Below are positions 12,021-46,748 of a stretch of 64,000 bases of DNA, piece by piece. The stretch's first letter is position 1, and every line of letters begins with the position of its first letter. The notes beneath the pieces were generated by a model. The model was not told the DNA's origin and did no database searches. It worked only from the letters and a program-made list of their open reading frames with translations. The DNA lies in the NCBI GenBank assembly GCA_004565275.1, contig SDOX01000019.1:120340-184339 (forward strand), in the 5' to 3' direction. The stretch comes from Nannochloropsis salina CCMP1776 (taxonomy: Eukaryota > Sar > Eustigmatophyceae > Eustigmatales > Monodopsidaceae). Position numbers and translations under genes: made by a program.

Positions 12021-12971
12021 TCACGGCCCTTGCAGCAACCTGTTCGCCGCAACTTCCACATTGTTATCCGCCCCCTGCAAGGCTCTTACAACCGCCCCCC
12101 GCTCGAAGCCCAACCCCATCAACATCTGTATTGCATCCTCCGACGCTGGTGGTGGTGGCGGAGGGGGTGCCAGCTGTCCTCCCTCCCGCCCTCCCCCTCC
12201 CCCTCGTCCTGGGGCCCGGTCGCCCCCCGGCAGGAGCTGTTCCCTCCCCGCCATGCCCGCTCTCCGTCGCCGCCTTTCCGCACCACCTCGAACCCGCGTT
12301 GTCGGGCGCCTTGCCTGGAGCAGGGGCTCCAAGACGGAAGCCACGCCGCGGCACAGAACCTGGGGAAGAAGGACGGATTGCATCCCAAAGACATTACGCC
12401 GGTAGAGGATGCCCGCAAACAAGCCACACAAGGCGGGAATGGCCGTTTTCCAGCCCCCACCAAGGAGAAGCTGTGCCCCCACTGCGTAGTACATGCTCTT
12501 GTCGGACAAGTCCGCCCCACAGACACGGAGCAGGCGCGGGTGGAGTTTGGGTACGGTAGTATAAAAGAGGACAAACAAGGCGTAGACGACCCCAAAGGGC
12601 CCGGGAGACAAGACCAACCCCTCTCCTATCCTCCCTTTGCCCCCCAACCAGCCAGCAATCGCCATTTCTGTTGACGTTGCCAGGAGCGTGGAGAGGACAA
12701 GAAAGGAGCCAAATTTTCGAGAACCCATTTGCCGTTCAAAGTGCCGGAAGGTATAGAGCAGGAATACGCCCAGCACCGTTTGCGGGTGTTCTTGGAAGGC
12801 GATTTGACTGGTGAAAAGACGCCAGAGCTCTCCTTTGCGGAGAATGCGGGTCGTGTCCAATCTTAAAGTGTGACTAGAATGGGTGTAGGACGAGAGGAGG
12901 GAGGCTCCTACCACCAGAAGGCAGTACCCTTTCGTGACGGGAGCATTCACAAAGCCCGCAAGCGCACCCAT
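12021..12971 (-). CDS. UBAC2: UBAC2-like rhomboid pseudoprotease with C-terminal UBA domain
   Basis: Single-exon 316-residue membrane protein matching UBAC2, an ER derlin/rhomboid-like pseudoprotease linked to ubiquitin-dependent degradation. The N-terminal two thirds hold several hydrophobic segments with the family signature QTVLGVFLLYTFRHFERQMG, and TRILRKGELWRLFTSQIAF before it. No rhomboid GxSG serine is seen, consistent with a pseudoprotease. An Arg/Gly/Pro linker (about residues 225-275, with a run of eight prolines) leads to a UBA domain at about 276-316: EDAIQMLMGLGFERGAVVRA, then NNVEVAANRLL. The start ATG at 12971 gives the short lumenal N-terminus typical of the family. The gene converges with the flavoprotein gene 288 bp away. 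Confidence 0.88.
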   Translation of the reverse strand: MGALAGFVNAPVTKGYCLLVVGASLLSSYTHSSHTLRLDTTRILRKGELWRLFTSQIAFQEHPQTVLGVFLLYTFRHFERQMGSRKFGSFLVLSTLLATSTEMAIAGWLGGKGRIGEGLVLSPGPFGVVYALFVLFYTTVPKLHPRLLRVCGADLSDKSMYYAVGAQLLLGGGWKTAIPALCGLFAGILYRRNVFGMQSVLLPQVLCRGVASVLEPLLQARRPTTRVRGGAERRRRRAGMAGREQLLPGGDRAPGRGGGGGREGGQLAPPPPPPPASEDAIQMLMGLGFERGAVVRALQGADNNVEVAANRLLQGP

Positions 12972-37185: not shown

Positions 37186-38533
37186 ATGTGCAGTAGTAAT
37201 ACTTTCCACCATCATGTGCACGACGACGAGCGAGTTGACCGTGCAAGGGGCTTGCTCTGCGAAGGGGCCTCATTGCTCGTGCAGACTCAAGAGAGCGCCG
37301 ATATCATTGACTCCAGCCGACACCTTCAGCAATGTCTAGACAAATTTGACTGTGCATTACGCCTCGCTCCACATCTGCGGGCTCATGCGGTAAGGGGTTG
37401 GGATGTGTGGGCGCTTGAGGTATGAAGGTCGTGATGCTTTGGTATCTAGCAATGTGCACTAAAACCCGGCTATCTGTGCACGATGAAAGCTCGTAGAGGG
37501 TGGTTCTCCGTCCTAGTGGGTAGTCTGACGAAACTCTGATGTATTGTGCTATTAAAATACTACTTGACACTTTCTTCCTTAGAAGAAGTAAGCTGCACTC
37601 ATTAGATTTGCTCATGGCTTTCTCCTCTCCTTTCCATCCCCTTTCCTCCAGTGGGAAAGAGGTTTCGTCCTCCTATATTTGAATCGCATTAAAGAAGCAG
37701 CTGATCAGTTCGCCTATTGCACTTCCTTGGATCCGGATGACTGCGAGCCCTTTCTCTGGCGCTCATTGGTGCGTTGTCAACGGAGGGCATTCGTATAGGT
37801 GAAAGTCATCGAGACACGTACGCCATAGGAAAACCTCCAGGGTATTTCAGGGCATGAGATGCTTATGCCTGTAATATATTGCCCAATTTTTTTTCCTTAC
37901 ACATTACCTGCGAGAGGTAACTAACCCGCCCCCATAAATCTGCATGCTCTCTCTTTCATTCTTCAGTGCGTCGCCAAGCTTCAAGGATGGAACGCCGGCC
38001 TCGCAGTCCTGGATCAGTTCCACGGGTACGACAACAGACTCTGCATGATGGAGGTGCTTGCTCTGTATAAGGGAAAGACAAATTTGGAGAGCGTCTTCGA
38101 CTGTGCCTGCGGGGACCCACACTCCGCCGCACGGGCTTCGTTTGCGTGCGCGCTCTTCTTCGAGGCGCATGGGACGAGGGAAGCAGAAAAAATGTCTCTA
38201 CCCTTACTGCACGCGGTGGCCACAGTCCACTGTGGGGGCGACACCTACTTGCAGTCCCTTGCCCGCATCCACATGCGTCACGTCCAGGATAGCCTCCACT
38301 CTATCCATGCTCATGCCCAAGACGGGCGCCGTACCCCTCTCTCCTGTGGCTTCCCCTCTTCTCCTACCGCGTCGACCGTCTCCTCTCCAGCAGCGTTGGC
38401 TTCGCCCACGGCTCTCGGCACAGAGATTGCCGACGAGAAAGGGCGCAAGTACGATACTCCCTCCGTGCCGCTCTGTAGCCGTGCTGCCAAGGCAGCCGTT
38501 CTTAGAAGAGCCCTTGTAAAAAATAGTTGTTGA
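37186..38533 (+). CDS. TPR-like protein, stand-alone paralogue, three exons
   Basis: Unnamed 295-residue helical-repeat protein. Exons are 37186-37389, 37652-37768 and 37967-38533, phase 0 throughout, GTAAGG/GTGCGT donors. The helix pairs CLDKFDCALRLAPHLRAHA, WERGFVLLYLNRIKEAADQF and ASFACALFFEAHGTREAEKM resemble tetratricopeptide units (W..G..L.....Y..A...F). The middle unit contains SLDPDDCEPFLWRSL. The C-terminal about 80 residues are Ser/Pro/Ala-rich and disordered. It aligns end to end with the N-terminal part of the next gene (40268-44989), including WERGF, DPDDxEPxLWR and the position of the first intron. The two are therefore a tandem duplication; this copy lacks the enzyme domains. 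No targeting signal is clear. Confidence 0.75.
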
Positions 38534-40267: not shown

Positions 40268-43200
40268 ATGGATGAAGAATTACGGCTGGAGACGGCTCGA
40301 GAACTTTTAGCCCGGGGTTGTGCAGAACTTGTTCGCCGCGACGCTCCTCTGGAGCCAGCTTTGCAGCTTATAGAAGCGGCGCTATTCATTTCGCCGACGC
40401 TACGGAGCTGTGCGGTAAAGCGGAGGGAGGCAGATAGAGAGAGAGGAGGGATTGGTAAATAAAGGAGGGAATGAAAAAGAAAGGAAGCTTATAAGCTCAA
40501 TTAGAGAAATGTGCGTGATTGTCGTGAGGCGTATTGTGAGATCTCTTCGTTATCGATGATACCGCCCCATGGCTTTAGCCTCCCCACCGGGCGTTGGAGA
40601 GATGCCTCTACCGCGTTAGGACAGCAAGTGCAAGATATGTACCTCAGACGATTGAGAAAGCATTCATACACAAGAGTTATATAATAGTGTTTGATTCTGA
40701 TGCCGCCCGAGCCGGGCAAACGTACCTGTGCCACAGCCACTCCCATGAACCACCAAATTGACATCTTTTCGATTTCTCCTTTCATTCTCAGTGGGAACGA
40801 GGGTTTGCTCTCTACTATAAAGGAGCTTGGGCCGCTGCTGCCGATCAGTTCAGTGCTTGCTGTCAAGTCGATCCAGACGACCTGGAGCCTTACCTGTGGA
40901 GATGCCTCGCCGATGCCAAAGGGGAGGGCGGCTGGGAGGGGGCGAGGGCGGGCTTGCACGACGGATTCAAGGGGCACGACAGGCGGGTGGGCATGATGAA
41001 CATCTTGTCGCTCTTTTTGGAAGAAGAGGAAGAACATGGAGTGCGAGGCAGCGACGAAGAACGGAAGGAAAAAAGGCTGAGAGCCGTCCAGGCGGTGCTG
41101 GAGTTTGGAGAGGGAGACTGCCATGCTTCCCAGCGCATTTCTTTCGCCTGCGCGTTGTATTTGGAGGCGCGTGGGATGGAAGAAGAGGCCCTGGCTGTGT
41201 TGGAAGAGGTGACATCACGGAAGGAGGACGGGGATGTCTACATGCGGGAGATGGCGCGAAACCATCTCAGGGTCTTGGGCCGGCGGCTGGCGTCCCAAGT
41301 CCTGCCTTGCGCGAGTGCGGGGAAAGCGACAAGAAGTCAGGAAAGGAAGAGGGTTTTTGAAACTCCACGGGTGATCAAAGGGGGCTGGCAGCTATCGGCG
41401 GGCCACACCATGGTTTCAGTGCATGCTGGAGGAGGAGGGAGCGATGGAGGGGAGGGAGGGGCCTCTGGCAGGGAAGAGGGCCGCCCGGCCCCCTGTAAGG
41501 CTTTGGAGCGCGCAGCCGCCGCAGCTCGTGTCTTTGCCGCCCCACGCTCGCTGGCAGCACCCGAAGAGGAACCGTCGGAAGAGGCTGCCAGGACGGAGAT
41601 AGCGGCTTTGGTGGACCTGGAAGGGCACGCCCAGGCCGGCATCACGGCCTTCGACGCGGGGGATATTTACACCGGAGTGGAACGCCTGCTGGGGCGGTTT
41701 TGGCGCGAACACCATCCCACCTACACAGCCCCCCGGCCCATCCAGATCCATACCAAGTGCGTCCCGGACCGGCACCTGCTCCCGACCCTGGACCGAAGTA
41801 CCCTGCGTGCCTCTGTGCTTCGGAGTCTGAACCGGCTGGAGTGTGCCTCTATTTACCTCTTGCAGTTCCACTGGTGGGATTTTCAAGTCCCGGGGTACCT
41901 GGAAGCTGCCCGTTGCTTGGAGGAATTGCGCGAAGAGGGCTTGATCACGCATGTGGGTCTGACGAACTTCGACGTGCGCCGCACCAGGGAGCTGTTGGAC
42001 GCCGGCGTGGAAATCGCCAGCACCCAGGTCCAACTCTCTTTGATCGACGACCGGGCGGTGCGTACGGGCCTGTTGGAGCAAGCCCAGGAGGAAGGGATCG
42101 CGGTACTGGCCTACGGGGTCTTGGCCGGCGGCTTCCTGACTGACGCGTGGCTGGGCCGCCCGGAGCCCCGGAGGAAGGAGGGGGAGGGCGGGGGAAATCC
42201 GGGGGAAGGTGGGATGTCGAATAGGTCACTGGTCAAATACTTGCTCGTCATCGAGGACTGGGGTGGGTGGGCCCGACTCCAGTCCCTCCTCCAGCTGTGC
42301 CGGGCCATCGCCGACCGACATTCGTCCTTCTCGTCCTCCTCTTGGTCCCCGCTGGATCCCTCCTTCCCTAGTTGTCCTTGGGAGGGGGACGAAGGCACCC
42401 ACGCCTCCACCCCTTCCTCCTTCCCTTCCTCCTTGTCTCCTTCCGCCCCGCCCTCTCCTCCCGTCACTATCGCCATGGTGGCCATTCGATACGTCCTGGA
42501 CCTTCCCGGCGTCTCTGCCGTCATCCTCGGTTCCCGCTCTCCCTCCCATATCCATCAAGCCGTGCGAGCCGCTGAGGGAGGTTCGGAGAGAGGGCGGGAA
42601 AGAGGCAGAATACACCGGCCATTCATGCTCACAGAGCAGGACAAGGCGGAACTGGAAGCATTCTTGAGAGGCAATGGGCAGGCGGGGTCGGTGCGGGGGG
42701 AGGTGTACGAGCTGGAGCGAGAAAAGGCCGGGCCCCATGCGGCTATCATGCGTTACAATTTGAACGAGGGTCTGCGGGGCGGGGCTCATTGTGCCGAGAT
42801 CCTCGACCGTTTCTTGGACGGCTTTGCCTTCCACTTTCCCCACCACGCTCCCTCCCATCGACGTTGCCTCCCCCGCTTCCCTCCCGTCGACCCATCCTCC
42901 CGCCGTGCCGTCACCTCCTGGGCGACCCGGCTGCAACTTGAACTTTCCTTACTCCAAGATCGCGATCTTTCTCCCTCCCAGCGCGTCGACCGAAGGTTGC
43001 TCCGTGCCTCCTTGCGCTTGCTGGTGTTGCAACAGCAAGCCCGTTCCAGGGGAGTGGCAGCGGTAGAGGTGCTGGAACATTTGTGGGCGGCTATCGAGGG
43101 GCTGGTGGAGGGCGGGGCGGAGGGCGGGGGGGGGGGCGGGCGGGCATGGGGGGACGAGAACGTGTGGGCCGGCAGCCCTCCTTCCGGCTCCTTTCCTCCC

Positions 43201-43629
43201 TCCTCTTCTTCCTCTCCTTCCACCTTCTCCCCCGCCTTCTCCTCCTTTGGGTCTCCCTCTTTCCCCTCCGTCTCGCACCGGCCCCAAGCGTTTCCCGCGG
43301 CCAACATGCGACGCTATGAGGCGCTTTCTTCCCTCCTGCTCCGCGTCCCCCAGGTCCTGCTCAAGGACGTCATCATGGAGTTGCGTGCGGCCGGCGCCTT
43401 GCCTTCTTTGTGGGCGCACGCTGCGCTCCGGATGTACCGTGGTTTGGTGCAGTACTTAAGAAAACGGGAAGGGGAGGGGTGGAGAGGGTTGAGGAGAGAG
43501 GAAGAGGAGATGGAGGGGGAAGGAAGGGCCAGGAGGGGGCAAGTGGCCTTCTACGCAGAGACAGCGGCATTGGCGGTTGAGATGTATGCCAAGACGCTTC
43601 GATGCGAGTGTGACGTGGAGGAGGAGGAG

Positions 43630-43660
<31 letters not shown>

Positions 43661-44989
43661 TGGAAAAAGAGGAGGAAATGGGGGAGGAGGATGAGAAAGA
43701 GGAAGTGATGGATTTGGAGGAGTTGCAGAGTTGGCAGGAAGAAAAAGAGGCAGAGAGGCAACGGCGCCGCCGGCTTTGGGCTTTGAGACGCGTGAGCAGT
43801 AACAGGGGGGAGGGAGGTGGAGGAGAAGGGGGAGAGACAAAGGAGGGAAGCCGAGTGCGGGCCCTCGGACTTGGCCGTAAGAATTTGGGAAAATTCGCTG
43901 TGTTACTGCACGGGCATGAGCCTCCCAGGGATGATGAGGAGAGAGGGAAAGCGGCCGAGGGGCCAGGGACTGAGGAAGGGGAGGGGAGGAAGGGGGAGGA
44001 GTTGCTCATTGAAATCGAGACGAGGGGAGAGGAAAGGTACGTGGAAATTTTGGCGGCACTGGAAAAGACGGCCGAGGCCCTCTCTGCGTGGGAGGGGGAG
44101 GTGGGGGCAGGGAGCCGATTAGGGGAAGGAGAGAGGGGCGGGGAGGCGTGGGGACAGGTGCGGGCAGAGGGCAGCGGGAGGAGTGAAAGGAGGGCTGGGG
44201 GGGCCCAGGTGGGGAGGAAGGACTGGAAAGAATGGTGGGAGGTGGTCCGAGGGACGTGGAAGACGCCCGCGACCCTGTGGCCCCCCTGTCCACCGGGCCC
44301 TACACCCCTCCGCGACCCCCCCTTGTCCTCGGGGCCTCACCGAAACGGGGGACGAACCCGCGACGCCCTCCCTCCCTCCCGCCCTCCCTCCCCCCATGTC
44401 TCCCCCCATGTCTCCCGTCCTGCCACGGCCATGGTACACCTGCCCCCGCTTCGCGGACGGCCTCAGCCTGCTGGGGGAGGAAGAACACCTCCTCTCCGTG
44501 GACCCCTCCTGGTCCCTCTGCCCCCCCCTCCCTGCTTACGCGGCGCGCCCCGGCCCACCTGCACTCAAGGTCGACGCCTCGCACGCCTTTGCCCGGCTCG
44601 TCTTCCTCCGCCGGCTTCTCCTCAGCGCTGCTCGGTGTTTCCTGGAGGTCCGCTTGCATGAAGGGGAGTGGACCGCGCGACAAGTCTGCAATTTCTTGGA
44701 ATCGGAGCTGGTTCTTTCCAAGGGCGAAGCCCGGCGGGAAGTGATGATGTACCTCAGGCATCCCTTGACGGCAAGCGCGGGTTTGATGGGCTGGGAAGAG
44801 TTGCGGGAATGGAGGAGGAGGGAGGTAGAGGACCAACGGCAAGGAAAGAGGGGCGAAGGGAGGGCGCTGAGGACGGAGAGGGACCACCAGGAATGGTGGG
44901 AGAAGGCGGCAAGCTTCGGGCGGATACCTCCGTGTTACGTGATGTATTTGGAAGAGAAGAGTCGGGAGGGAGCGAGAGGGGAGGCATGA
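40268..44989 (+). CDS. TPR - aldo/keto reductase - DUF885-like fusion protein
   Basis: Giant multidomain protein of about 1,400-1,450 residues. Exon 1 is 40268-40414; exon 2 opens at 40792 (TTCTCAG acceptor) with WERGFALYYKGAWAAAADQF. Residues about 1-200 are TPR-like and paralogous to the preceding gene. About 320-470 plus 560-640 form an aldo/keto reductase with the full tetrad: D337 and Y342 (FDAGDIY), K371 (IHTKCVPDR), H409 (LQFHWWDF), then EEGLITHVGLTNFD. From about 660 on, DLSPSQRVDRRLLRASLRLL, and at the end CPRFADGLSLLG and EVRLHEGEWTARQVCNFLES with YLRHPLTASAGL, match the layout of DUF885 proteins. Long Glu-rich low-complexity blocks intervene (43617-43740). The frame changes once between about 44190 and 44450. 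I cannot tell a cryptic intron from an indel there; a G7 run lies at about 44194. NADPH reduction is expected for the AKR part; the real substrate is unknown. Confidence 0.8.
43617..43690 (+). repeat. (GAG)n microsatellite encoding poly-glutamate
   Basis: GAG/GAA units encode an acidic run between the DUF885-like halves of the fusion protein. Confidence 0.8.
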
Positions 44990-45653
44990 GAAGGGGCGAT
45001 AGGACGGGTGAGGGAGGGAGGAGGGAGGGGAGGAGGGAGGGAGGGAGGGGAGGAGGGAGGGAGGGAGGACGAGAAGAAAGTCTAGGAGGGTGGAGGTATG
45101 CCTGTGTACATAAACACAAACATGTACATTCTATCTCGCAAGGAAGCTGGCCACGAGGCGCCAGCTTGGAAAACCCCTCGAGCGCGAAAGAGAAGTCGGC
45201 CGAAAAGGACCGGCAGGGAGGAACGGGAAGAGTAAGCAGCGGCTGGCAGGCGGGCACGGAGAGAGAAGACGTGCCACAGGCGGCAGCGTGGAGCAAGTGT
45301 ACGGGTTACATGTGGGAAAAGGGTAGTTTTTGTCGAAGAGGTGGAAGCGGTCAGGTGCCAGGAGAAGCCAGAGAGCCCCATGGAGGAGGCTGCCCAGAGG
45401 CGAGCCTTGCCCTACCTAAAATGAAGCCACGGTCGCACGAATAGAGAGAACCGATGCCACATGCGTGTGGAAACCGTTTTGAGGGGAAGCAATGACGGCC
45501 AAGCTTGAGAAAAAAGGCGCGAAAGCAACGCAAGCTTTCCTGAAGTTTTGCCTTGAGCTGTGGTCATTTAGTTGGGATTTCCCCCCGCCATTGTTTGCCC
45601 TTTACCTGTGAGCTACTCCTTCCCCCCCCCCCCCGTTGTGACCCTCTCCCGCC
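44990..45653. other. Convergent intergenic stretch with GGGA repeats
   Basis: Starts with a GGGA-rich tract (about 45006-45070) shortly after the fusion gene's TGA. The rest has no supported gene. A C11 run lies at about 45624-45634 before the OTC 3' end. Confidence 0.55.
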
Positions 45654-46748
45654 TCACACCCTCTTCCCCTCCCCCCCCACCAACGAAAGCATGACGGCCA
45701 TGACCGTCCACATCCGGTTCTCCGCCTCTGGGAACACCAAACTCCGTGCGGGGTCGTAAAAGACCTCGTCCGTCACCTCCTCGGGATGGCGGGGCAGGCA
45801 GTGCAAGAACACGCAGGCCGGCCGCCCGGCATTGGACCCCTTGGCCCCTTGCTCCATCATACGTCTCGTCACCTGGAAGCCCTCGAAATCCCGCATCCGC
45901 CTCTCGTACTCCTCCTCTTGGCCCATGCTCACCCAGGTGTCCGTCACGATCACGTGCGCGCCCGCGGCGGCCGTCATCGGATCTCTTTCCATCACATACG
46001 ACCCCCCCGACCGCTGGGCGTGCCACTCCACCCGGTGCATAATTTCGCCGTTGGGCTCGTAGCCCACGGGACAGGCCACCCGCACGTGCATACCCAGACG
46101 AGCTGCGCCCATGGCCAGATCGTGCAGGACGTTGTTCCCGTCACCTACCCATGTCAGAACTTTCCCCTGCAAACTCCCCTTCCCAAAATGCTCCTCCAGG
46201 GTCAGGAGATCGGCCAGGGCCTGCAAAGGGTGGTAAAGATCGGACAAGGCATTGATCACGGGGACGCTGGAATGTTTCGCGAGGAGCTGGACGTCCGTGT
46301 GGGCGAACACACGGGCGAGGAGGAGGGAATTGAAGCGGGAAAGCACATTCGCCGTGTCCCGCATACTCTCGTTTACGCCCAACTGTACATCTTGTGGACC
46401 CAGAAACAAGGCGTGGCCACCCAGAAGAGCCATGCCTGTCTCGGTCGATACGCGTGTACGTGTACTGCGTTTTTGGAAAATCATACTGACGCTCTTTCCC
46501 TCGCACGGCCGAGGAAGGACGGGAGGACTGGGCGAGGAATAGGCTTTCTTCAATTGAGCAGAAAGGGAAAGGAGGTCCCGGAGCTCGACGTCGGTGAGTT
46601 CGTCGATATTCATAAAGTTTTTCCCTTGCAGACTGGCCACGCCTTGAAAAGAGCGCATGCCTGGACGCGGTTGTAAATTCAAAAATGAGTTGGAATGGAG
46701 TCGTGAGGAGCTAGGAGGTATACGCAACACATGAACAATCCAACGCAT
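45654..46748 (-). CDS. OTC: Ornithine carbamoyltransferase, single exon
   Basis: Catalyses carbamoyl phosphate + ornithine to citrulline in arginine biosynthesis/urea cycle, normally in the mitochondrial matrix or plastid. 364 residues. The first about 40 (MRWIVHVLRIPPSSSRLHSN) are a basic, serine-rich organelle presequence. Carbamoyl-phosphate site: QKRSTRTRVSTETGMALLGG. Further conserved blocks are SDLYHPLQALADLLTL, WVGDGNNVLHDLAMGAA, VTDTWVSMGQEEEYERR (ornithine loop, DxWxSMG) and VFLHCLPRHPEEV (the catalytic cysteine motif HCLP). All key residues are present. An internal ATG (MRSFQGVASLQGKNF) preceded by CCGCGTCCAG could be the start of an alternative exon, but the uninterrupted frame is simplest. 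Confidence 0.97.
   Translation of the reverse strand: MRWIVHVLRIPPSSSRLHSNSFLNLQPRPGMRSFQGVASLQGKNFMNIDELTDVELRDLLSLSAQLKKAYSSPSPPVLPRPCEGKSVSMIFQKRSTRTRVSTETGMALLGGHALFLGPQDVQLGVNESMRDTANVLSRFNSLLLARVFAHTDVQLLAKHSSVPVINALSDLYHPLQALADLLTLEEHFGKGSLQGKVLTWVGDGNNVLHDLAMGAARLGMHVRVACPVGYEPNGEIMHRVEWHAQRSGGSYVMERDPMTAAAGAHVIVTDTWVSMGQEEEYERRMRDFEGFQVTRRMMEQGAKGSNAGRPACVFLHCLPRHPEEVTDEVFYDPARSLVFPEAENRMWTVMAVMLSLVGGEGKRV

Follow-up and report, generated by a model that had tools for sequence, protein, structure and literature searches.

Aldo-keto reductases (AKRs) take a hydride from nicotinamide, while a tyrosine, assisted by lysine, aspartate and histidine residues, supplies the proton. NlpI of E. 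coli is described as a tetratricopeptide-repeat (TPR) lipoprotein and an adaptor of the protease Prc, binding both Prc and a Prc substrate (PMC5686067), and DUF885 has been assigned to the zinc-dependent Peptidase_MA clan (PMC12572635). A Dictyostelium DUF885 protein is listed under horizontal gene transfer (PMC3188802), so that a eukaryotic DUF885 as such is not new. The literature searched contained no report of DUF885 together with an aldo-keto reductase, of a Nannochloropsis aldo-keto reductase fusion protein, or of radial spoke protein 5 (RSP5) with an aldo-keto reductase.

A locus in Nannochloropsis salina CCMP1776, lying in a 64,000-nucleotide stretch of contig SDOX01000019.1 that we analyzed as a whole (the window), joins an NlpI-type TPR module, an AKR and a DUF885 region, in that order (Table 1). 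Each of these modules is known; their order, combined with an apparently dead DUF885, was not found in the literature searched. Our preferred reading, which we consider reasonably probable, is one gene for a protein with three modules and a single enzyme: a TPR docking module, a competent AKR and a non-catalytic DUF885 scaffold. Because the parts are all known, and because multidomain fusions are common in eukaryotes, its impact would be moderate. Related algae may well carry this fusion too, the comparisons made here being with bacterial loci and the alga's own genome (a 26.5-Mb assembly in 103 contigs, whose 34 chlorophyll a/b-binding matches point to a photosynthetic eukaryote).

Table 1. 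Features of the fusion gene and of the neighboring TPR copy (positions in the window).
Feature	Position	Strand	Basis or remark
Fusion gene	40268-44989	+	Coordinates agree with the earlier note
Exon 1 (start codon and first TPR helices)	40268-40414	+	Open frame, GT donor, intron site matching the tandem copy
Intron 1	40415-40791	+	GTAAAG...TTCTCAG
NlpI-type TPR module (about aa 1-213, both exons)	40268-41283	+	Match to NlpI (1xnf)
AKR domain (aa 242-707, with low-complexity inserts)	41368-42765	+	PF00248; alignment with 58 bacterial relatives; AF2 model
Catalytic D337	41653-41655	+	Asp in 58/58 aligned relatives
Catalytic Y342	41668-41670	+	Tyr in 58/58 aligned relatives
Catalytic K371	41755-41757	+	Lys in 58/58 aligned relatives
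Catalytic H409	41869-41871	+	His 35, Phe 13, Tyr 10 of 58 relatives
DUF885 N-terminal half (AKR frame, low-complexity inserts)	42787-44277	+	Profile tests with shuffles and real ORFs
Frame-change zone (+1)	about 44240-44466	+	ORFs, codon-usage score, intron candidates
DUF885 C-terminal half and stop codon (frame +1)	44444-44989	+	PF05960; alignment; model and structure match
Stand-alone tandem TPR copy	37186-38533	+	Exon 1 37186-37389, exon 2 from 37652, last exon to 38533

The order of the modules, proposed in an earlier note on this DNA, is borne out by profile searches, the NlpI match and the match of the DUF885 C-terminal half. The same note had treated the locus as one gene, and this holds in part: after intron 1, a stop-free ORF (40792-44661) carries the TPR module, the AKR and the N-terminal half of DUF885 in one continuous frame, but the C-terminal DUF885 match lies in a separate ORF (44183-44989), +1 relative to the AKR frame. 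A score of codon usage, derived from 3,486 codons of 12 other reductase matches in the genome and of the neighboring carbamoyltransferase, is positive in the AKR frame over the greater part of 40800-44100; weak or negative values occur at 41220-41550 (which takes in the TPR-AKR junction and one insert), 43380-43590, 43740-43950 and 44040-44310, and at 43140-43290 the third frame outscores the AKR frame. At about 44340-44790 the score turns positive in the next frame, that of the C-terminal half, which is open there, and this switch places the frame change at about 44240-44466. Since the two halves of DUF885 lie in different frames, an intron or a sequence error is needed in this zone, and both are possible. 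Splice candidates were plentiful, with 112 GT/GC-AG introns keeping the frame open and none decisive; in view of this number and the lack of a standout, the choice of a single intron was dropped. The sequence holds no methionine from the last TPR helix (VYMREMARNH) to the start of the AKR, and none from IMRYNLN, the motif that closes the AKR, to where the DUF885-like residues begin, so neither the AKR nor the DUF885 region could initiate separately at its usual place. About 0.7 kb downstream, on the opposite strand, lies an aspartate/ornithine carbamoyltransferase-type gene (45654-46748, -).

These frame data bear on a division into two units, in which a TPR-AKR gene and, behind it, a decayed DUF885 gene would no longer be translated together. 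Decay would fit the frame change, the lost metal motif described below, the low-complexity inserts and the weak similarity of the N-terminal half. Against it, the AKR frame continues without a stop for about 500 codons into the N-terminal half, where its codon usage is positive for the most part. The frame of the C-terminal half is likewise open and positive over the interval given above; we regard two units as improbable.

When the first 219 residues were compared with the PDB (phmmer), the best match was NlpI (1xnf, E = 4.7e-6, aa 29-127). NlpI is also the best NCBIfam match, but at 15.4 bits against an equivalog cut-off of 250, and the single-repeat Pfam models TPR_2 (20.2 bits) and TPR_14 (20.6 bits) stay under their cut-offs. 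Whereas E. coli NlpI is a lipoprotein, the N-terminal sequence of the algal module (MDEELRLETARELL) has no lipobox or lipoprotein signal, and the module is fused to an enzyme. Upstream lies a stand-alone copy that, with its exons joined by hand for the comparison, is 35% identical to the TPR module of the fusion over 230 columns (E = 5e-39) and has its first intron at the same place; it is the sole further relative of the module found in the alga's own genome. This arrangement suggests that the TPR module was duplicated in tandem before or during the fusion. Within the fusion protein, the module would serve as a docking site for a partner or client protein.

The AKR domain is recognized by PF00248 with 154.3 bits (E = 4.7e-45; cut-off 24 bits). 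The catalytic tetrad of D337, Y342, K371 and H409, pointed out earlier, keeps the same residue numbers in the spliced model and agrees with the alignment of relatives; the residue counts in Table 1 refer to 58 of 80 loci, the other 22 having been left out because the start or end motif did not lie within one ORF. Four inserts of 59, 12, 46 and 15 residues interrupt the algal domain and occur in 0/58 of the aligned relatives. In an AF2 model built from an alignment of 33 sequences, most of the barrel outside the inserts has a pLDDT of 80-98 (about 50-80 in the TPR part), and the model matches the (beta/alpha)8 barrel of AKR structures with E down to 2.8e-10 (Foldseek), the matches listed bearing AKR-type titles, with radial spoke and potassium-channel entries among them. 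Judged by its residues and predicted fold, the domain is apparently a catalytically competent, NAD(P)H-dependent reductase. Its predicted reaction is the NAD(P)H-dependent reduction of a small carbonyl compound, the hydride coming from the nicotinamide and the proton from Y342, aided by K371, D337 and H409.

The closest relatives of the domain that we found are proteobacterial AKRs (loci L020-L099; tblastn E down to 9e-72 among candidate stretches). Of 536 confirmed stretches the 80 best were retained, and two of these come from Rokubacteria MAGs. The likeness spans the whole domain, from VI(K/R)GGWQL to IM(K/R)YNLN, with the catalytic D, Y and K invariant, at 32-40% identity by tblastn and 40-49% in the alignment of 33. 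Unlike the algal domain, the 58 aligned AKRs lack the inserts. No TPR or DUF885 relative turned up nearby: blastp found neither in the 80 loci, and a profile search found no DUF885-like ORF among their 5810 ORFs. Viral contigs yielded no AKR relatives.

These bacterial sequences also bear on a radial-spoke interpretation, by which the protein would be an RSP5-like axonemal component whose AKR fold has a structural role in a flagellum. In the PDB, the AKR sequence is indeed matched best by Chlamydomonas RSP5 (7jtk_I, E = 2.6e-11), whose AKR domain (7jtk, 7jrj) has the GGWARLQ segment in common with the algal one. RSP5 is nevertheless further from the algal AKR than the proteobacterial enzymes, which match it much more closely and have the C-terminal IMKYNLN motif together with the tetrad; RSP5 may be no more than the closest member whose structure has been solved. 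We consider an axonemal role hardly credible.

The alga has a related reductase on a separate contig (C47:208051-208752, locus L008), 32% identical to the AKR of the window and nearer, at 44-46% identity, to a second AKR of the bacterial loci; it thus has one AKR of each kind. An ORF of this second kind lies near the window-type reductase in 79/80 bacterial loci, a biased set, since the scan pattern LLQFHWW also occurs in the second AKR type. In another sample, of 190 genomes, 11 contained the window-type reductase, and in 5/11 a further, less similar match (37-43% identity) lay no more than 6 kb away, one of these five genomes (G013) having come in via the biased scan. On account of the bias and of the 5/11, a fixed pairing of the two reductases was rejected. 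Two long open frames elsewhere in the genome (C41:10106-11599 and C41:17693-19183) each contain two tandem AKR matches.

The match of the C-terminal part to DUF885 has statistical support: PF05960 aligns to 44591-44821 with E = 1.1e-7 (profile positions 422-499 of 532), which speaks against a chance match, although the score of 32.3 bits falls just below the cut-off of 32.4 (32.6 bits when neighbors in frame are counted). A predicted model of the C-terminal half, which may have the DUF885 fold, puts the three solved DUF885 structures at the head of its matches. The N-terminal half is weakly recognizable. With the untrimmed AKR frame, a profile of 28 DUF885 sequences gave nothing significant; after removal of low complexity by hand, the N-terminal half scored 11.4 bits, a value reached by 0/5000 shuffles and 0/1500 real ORFs, which served as null sets. 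The two landmarks on which DUF885 had been proposed, LHxGW..EQ and PxxAxxG, are present but read LHEGEW..RQ and PLTASAGLMG; because they lie outside the metal site, we rejected them as a sign of activity. By profile search the alga's own genome has no other DUF885 match, and tblastn of the C-terminal half against plasmids found none.

The metal site itself is missing. Bacterial DUF885 proteins have HExxxGH in 28/31 cases and HHGSIGHH in the other three (L100, L132 and L133), with EGW downstream of the metal motif in 31/31; both motifs also occur in 27/27 additional loci (L134-L160), which are partly the same genes as the earlier 31. The HHGSIGHH subgroup is rare, found at high score in 3/385 alphaproteobacterial genomes. 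By contrast, neither HExxxGH nor HHxxxGHH occurs at the aligned place in any forward frame across 42740-44990; the only hits of a motif scan over these three frames were HHAPSH at 42841, close to the domain start, and EGW at 43474 and 44190, both off the aligned place. The position of EGW, the third ligand, is occupied by DGL at 44456. In addition, the algal sequence is shortened exactly at the active-site stretch of its bacterial relatives: from the last N-terminal segment (44277) to DGL there are about 60 residues when read straight through, compared with 122 in L100, where the metal motif lies 40 residues ahead of EGW. Thus, the algal copy differs from the family in its motifs, in the length between its halves and in its place behind an AKR. 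Given the missing HExxxGH, the DGL in place of EGW and the shortened stretch, the module is, to judge from its sequence, most likely not a peptidase.

Should the catalytic stretch be intact in life and missing only from the assembly, the protein would be a bifunctional peptidase-reductase. The stretch that is missing (about 60 residues fewer than in L100) coincides with the frame change, in C-rich, repetitive DNA, and a loss in assembly would also account for the frame change. Set against this are the DGL, which lies within the readable C-terminal half, the absence of any N run or assembly gap from the stretch, and the lack of another DUF885 match in the genome. An assembly loss therefore seems doubtful to us, about as improbable as a division into two units.

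The earlier note had gone further, suggesting two active enzymes in one chain, of which one would supply its product to the other. The domain order is compatible with such a coupled pathway, which the missing metal motif leaves unsupported; nor do the two families appear as neighbors in the bacterial loci and genomes examined. DUF885 exceeded the cut-off in just one of 19 genomes with the window-type reductase (derived from 20 loci) and reached E <= 0.001 in two, and blastp found no AKR-like ORF in 64 DUF885 loci (L100-L163; flanks about 1.5 kb except in L161-L163, of which the gene list was examined for L161). We consider two coupled active enzymes very unlikely. A bacterial AKR-DUF885 operon as the ancestor of the fusion was likewise dropped, none having been found in the AKR loci, the DUF885 loci or the 19 genomes. 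In the one genome over the cut-off, DUF885 lies beside transporter genes that by eye resemble oligopeptide ABC transporters.

In the single-enzyme protein that we favor, the C-terminal module, derived from a DUF885 peptidase, would have no catalysis of its own and would serve as a helical scaffold or a surface for binding. If expressed as read, the gene would retain a bacterial-type peptidase fold without its catalytic center, attached to a reductase whose active site is intact and which follows a TPR module of protease-adaptor type, and the flanking modules could be used as bait for partners of a little-known reductase clade. A more specific and rather speculative possibility is that the dead DUF885 was recruited as a peptide- or client-sensing module and forms, with the NlpI-type TPR module, a docking platform that positions or switches the AKR; it would then be a regulatory DUF885 pseudoenzyme. 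The Pfam label alone would lead to misannotation as a bifunctional peptidase-reductase, which motif analysis corrects. Elsewhere in the window, an ORF at 12021-12971 (-) encodes a Rhomboid domain followed by a UBA domain.
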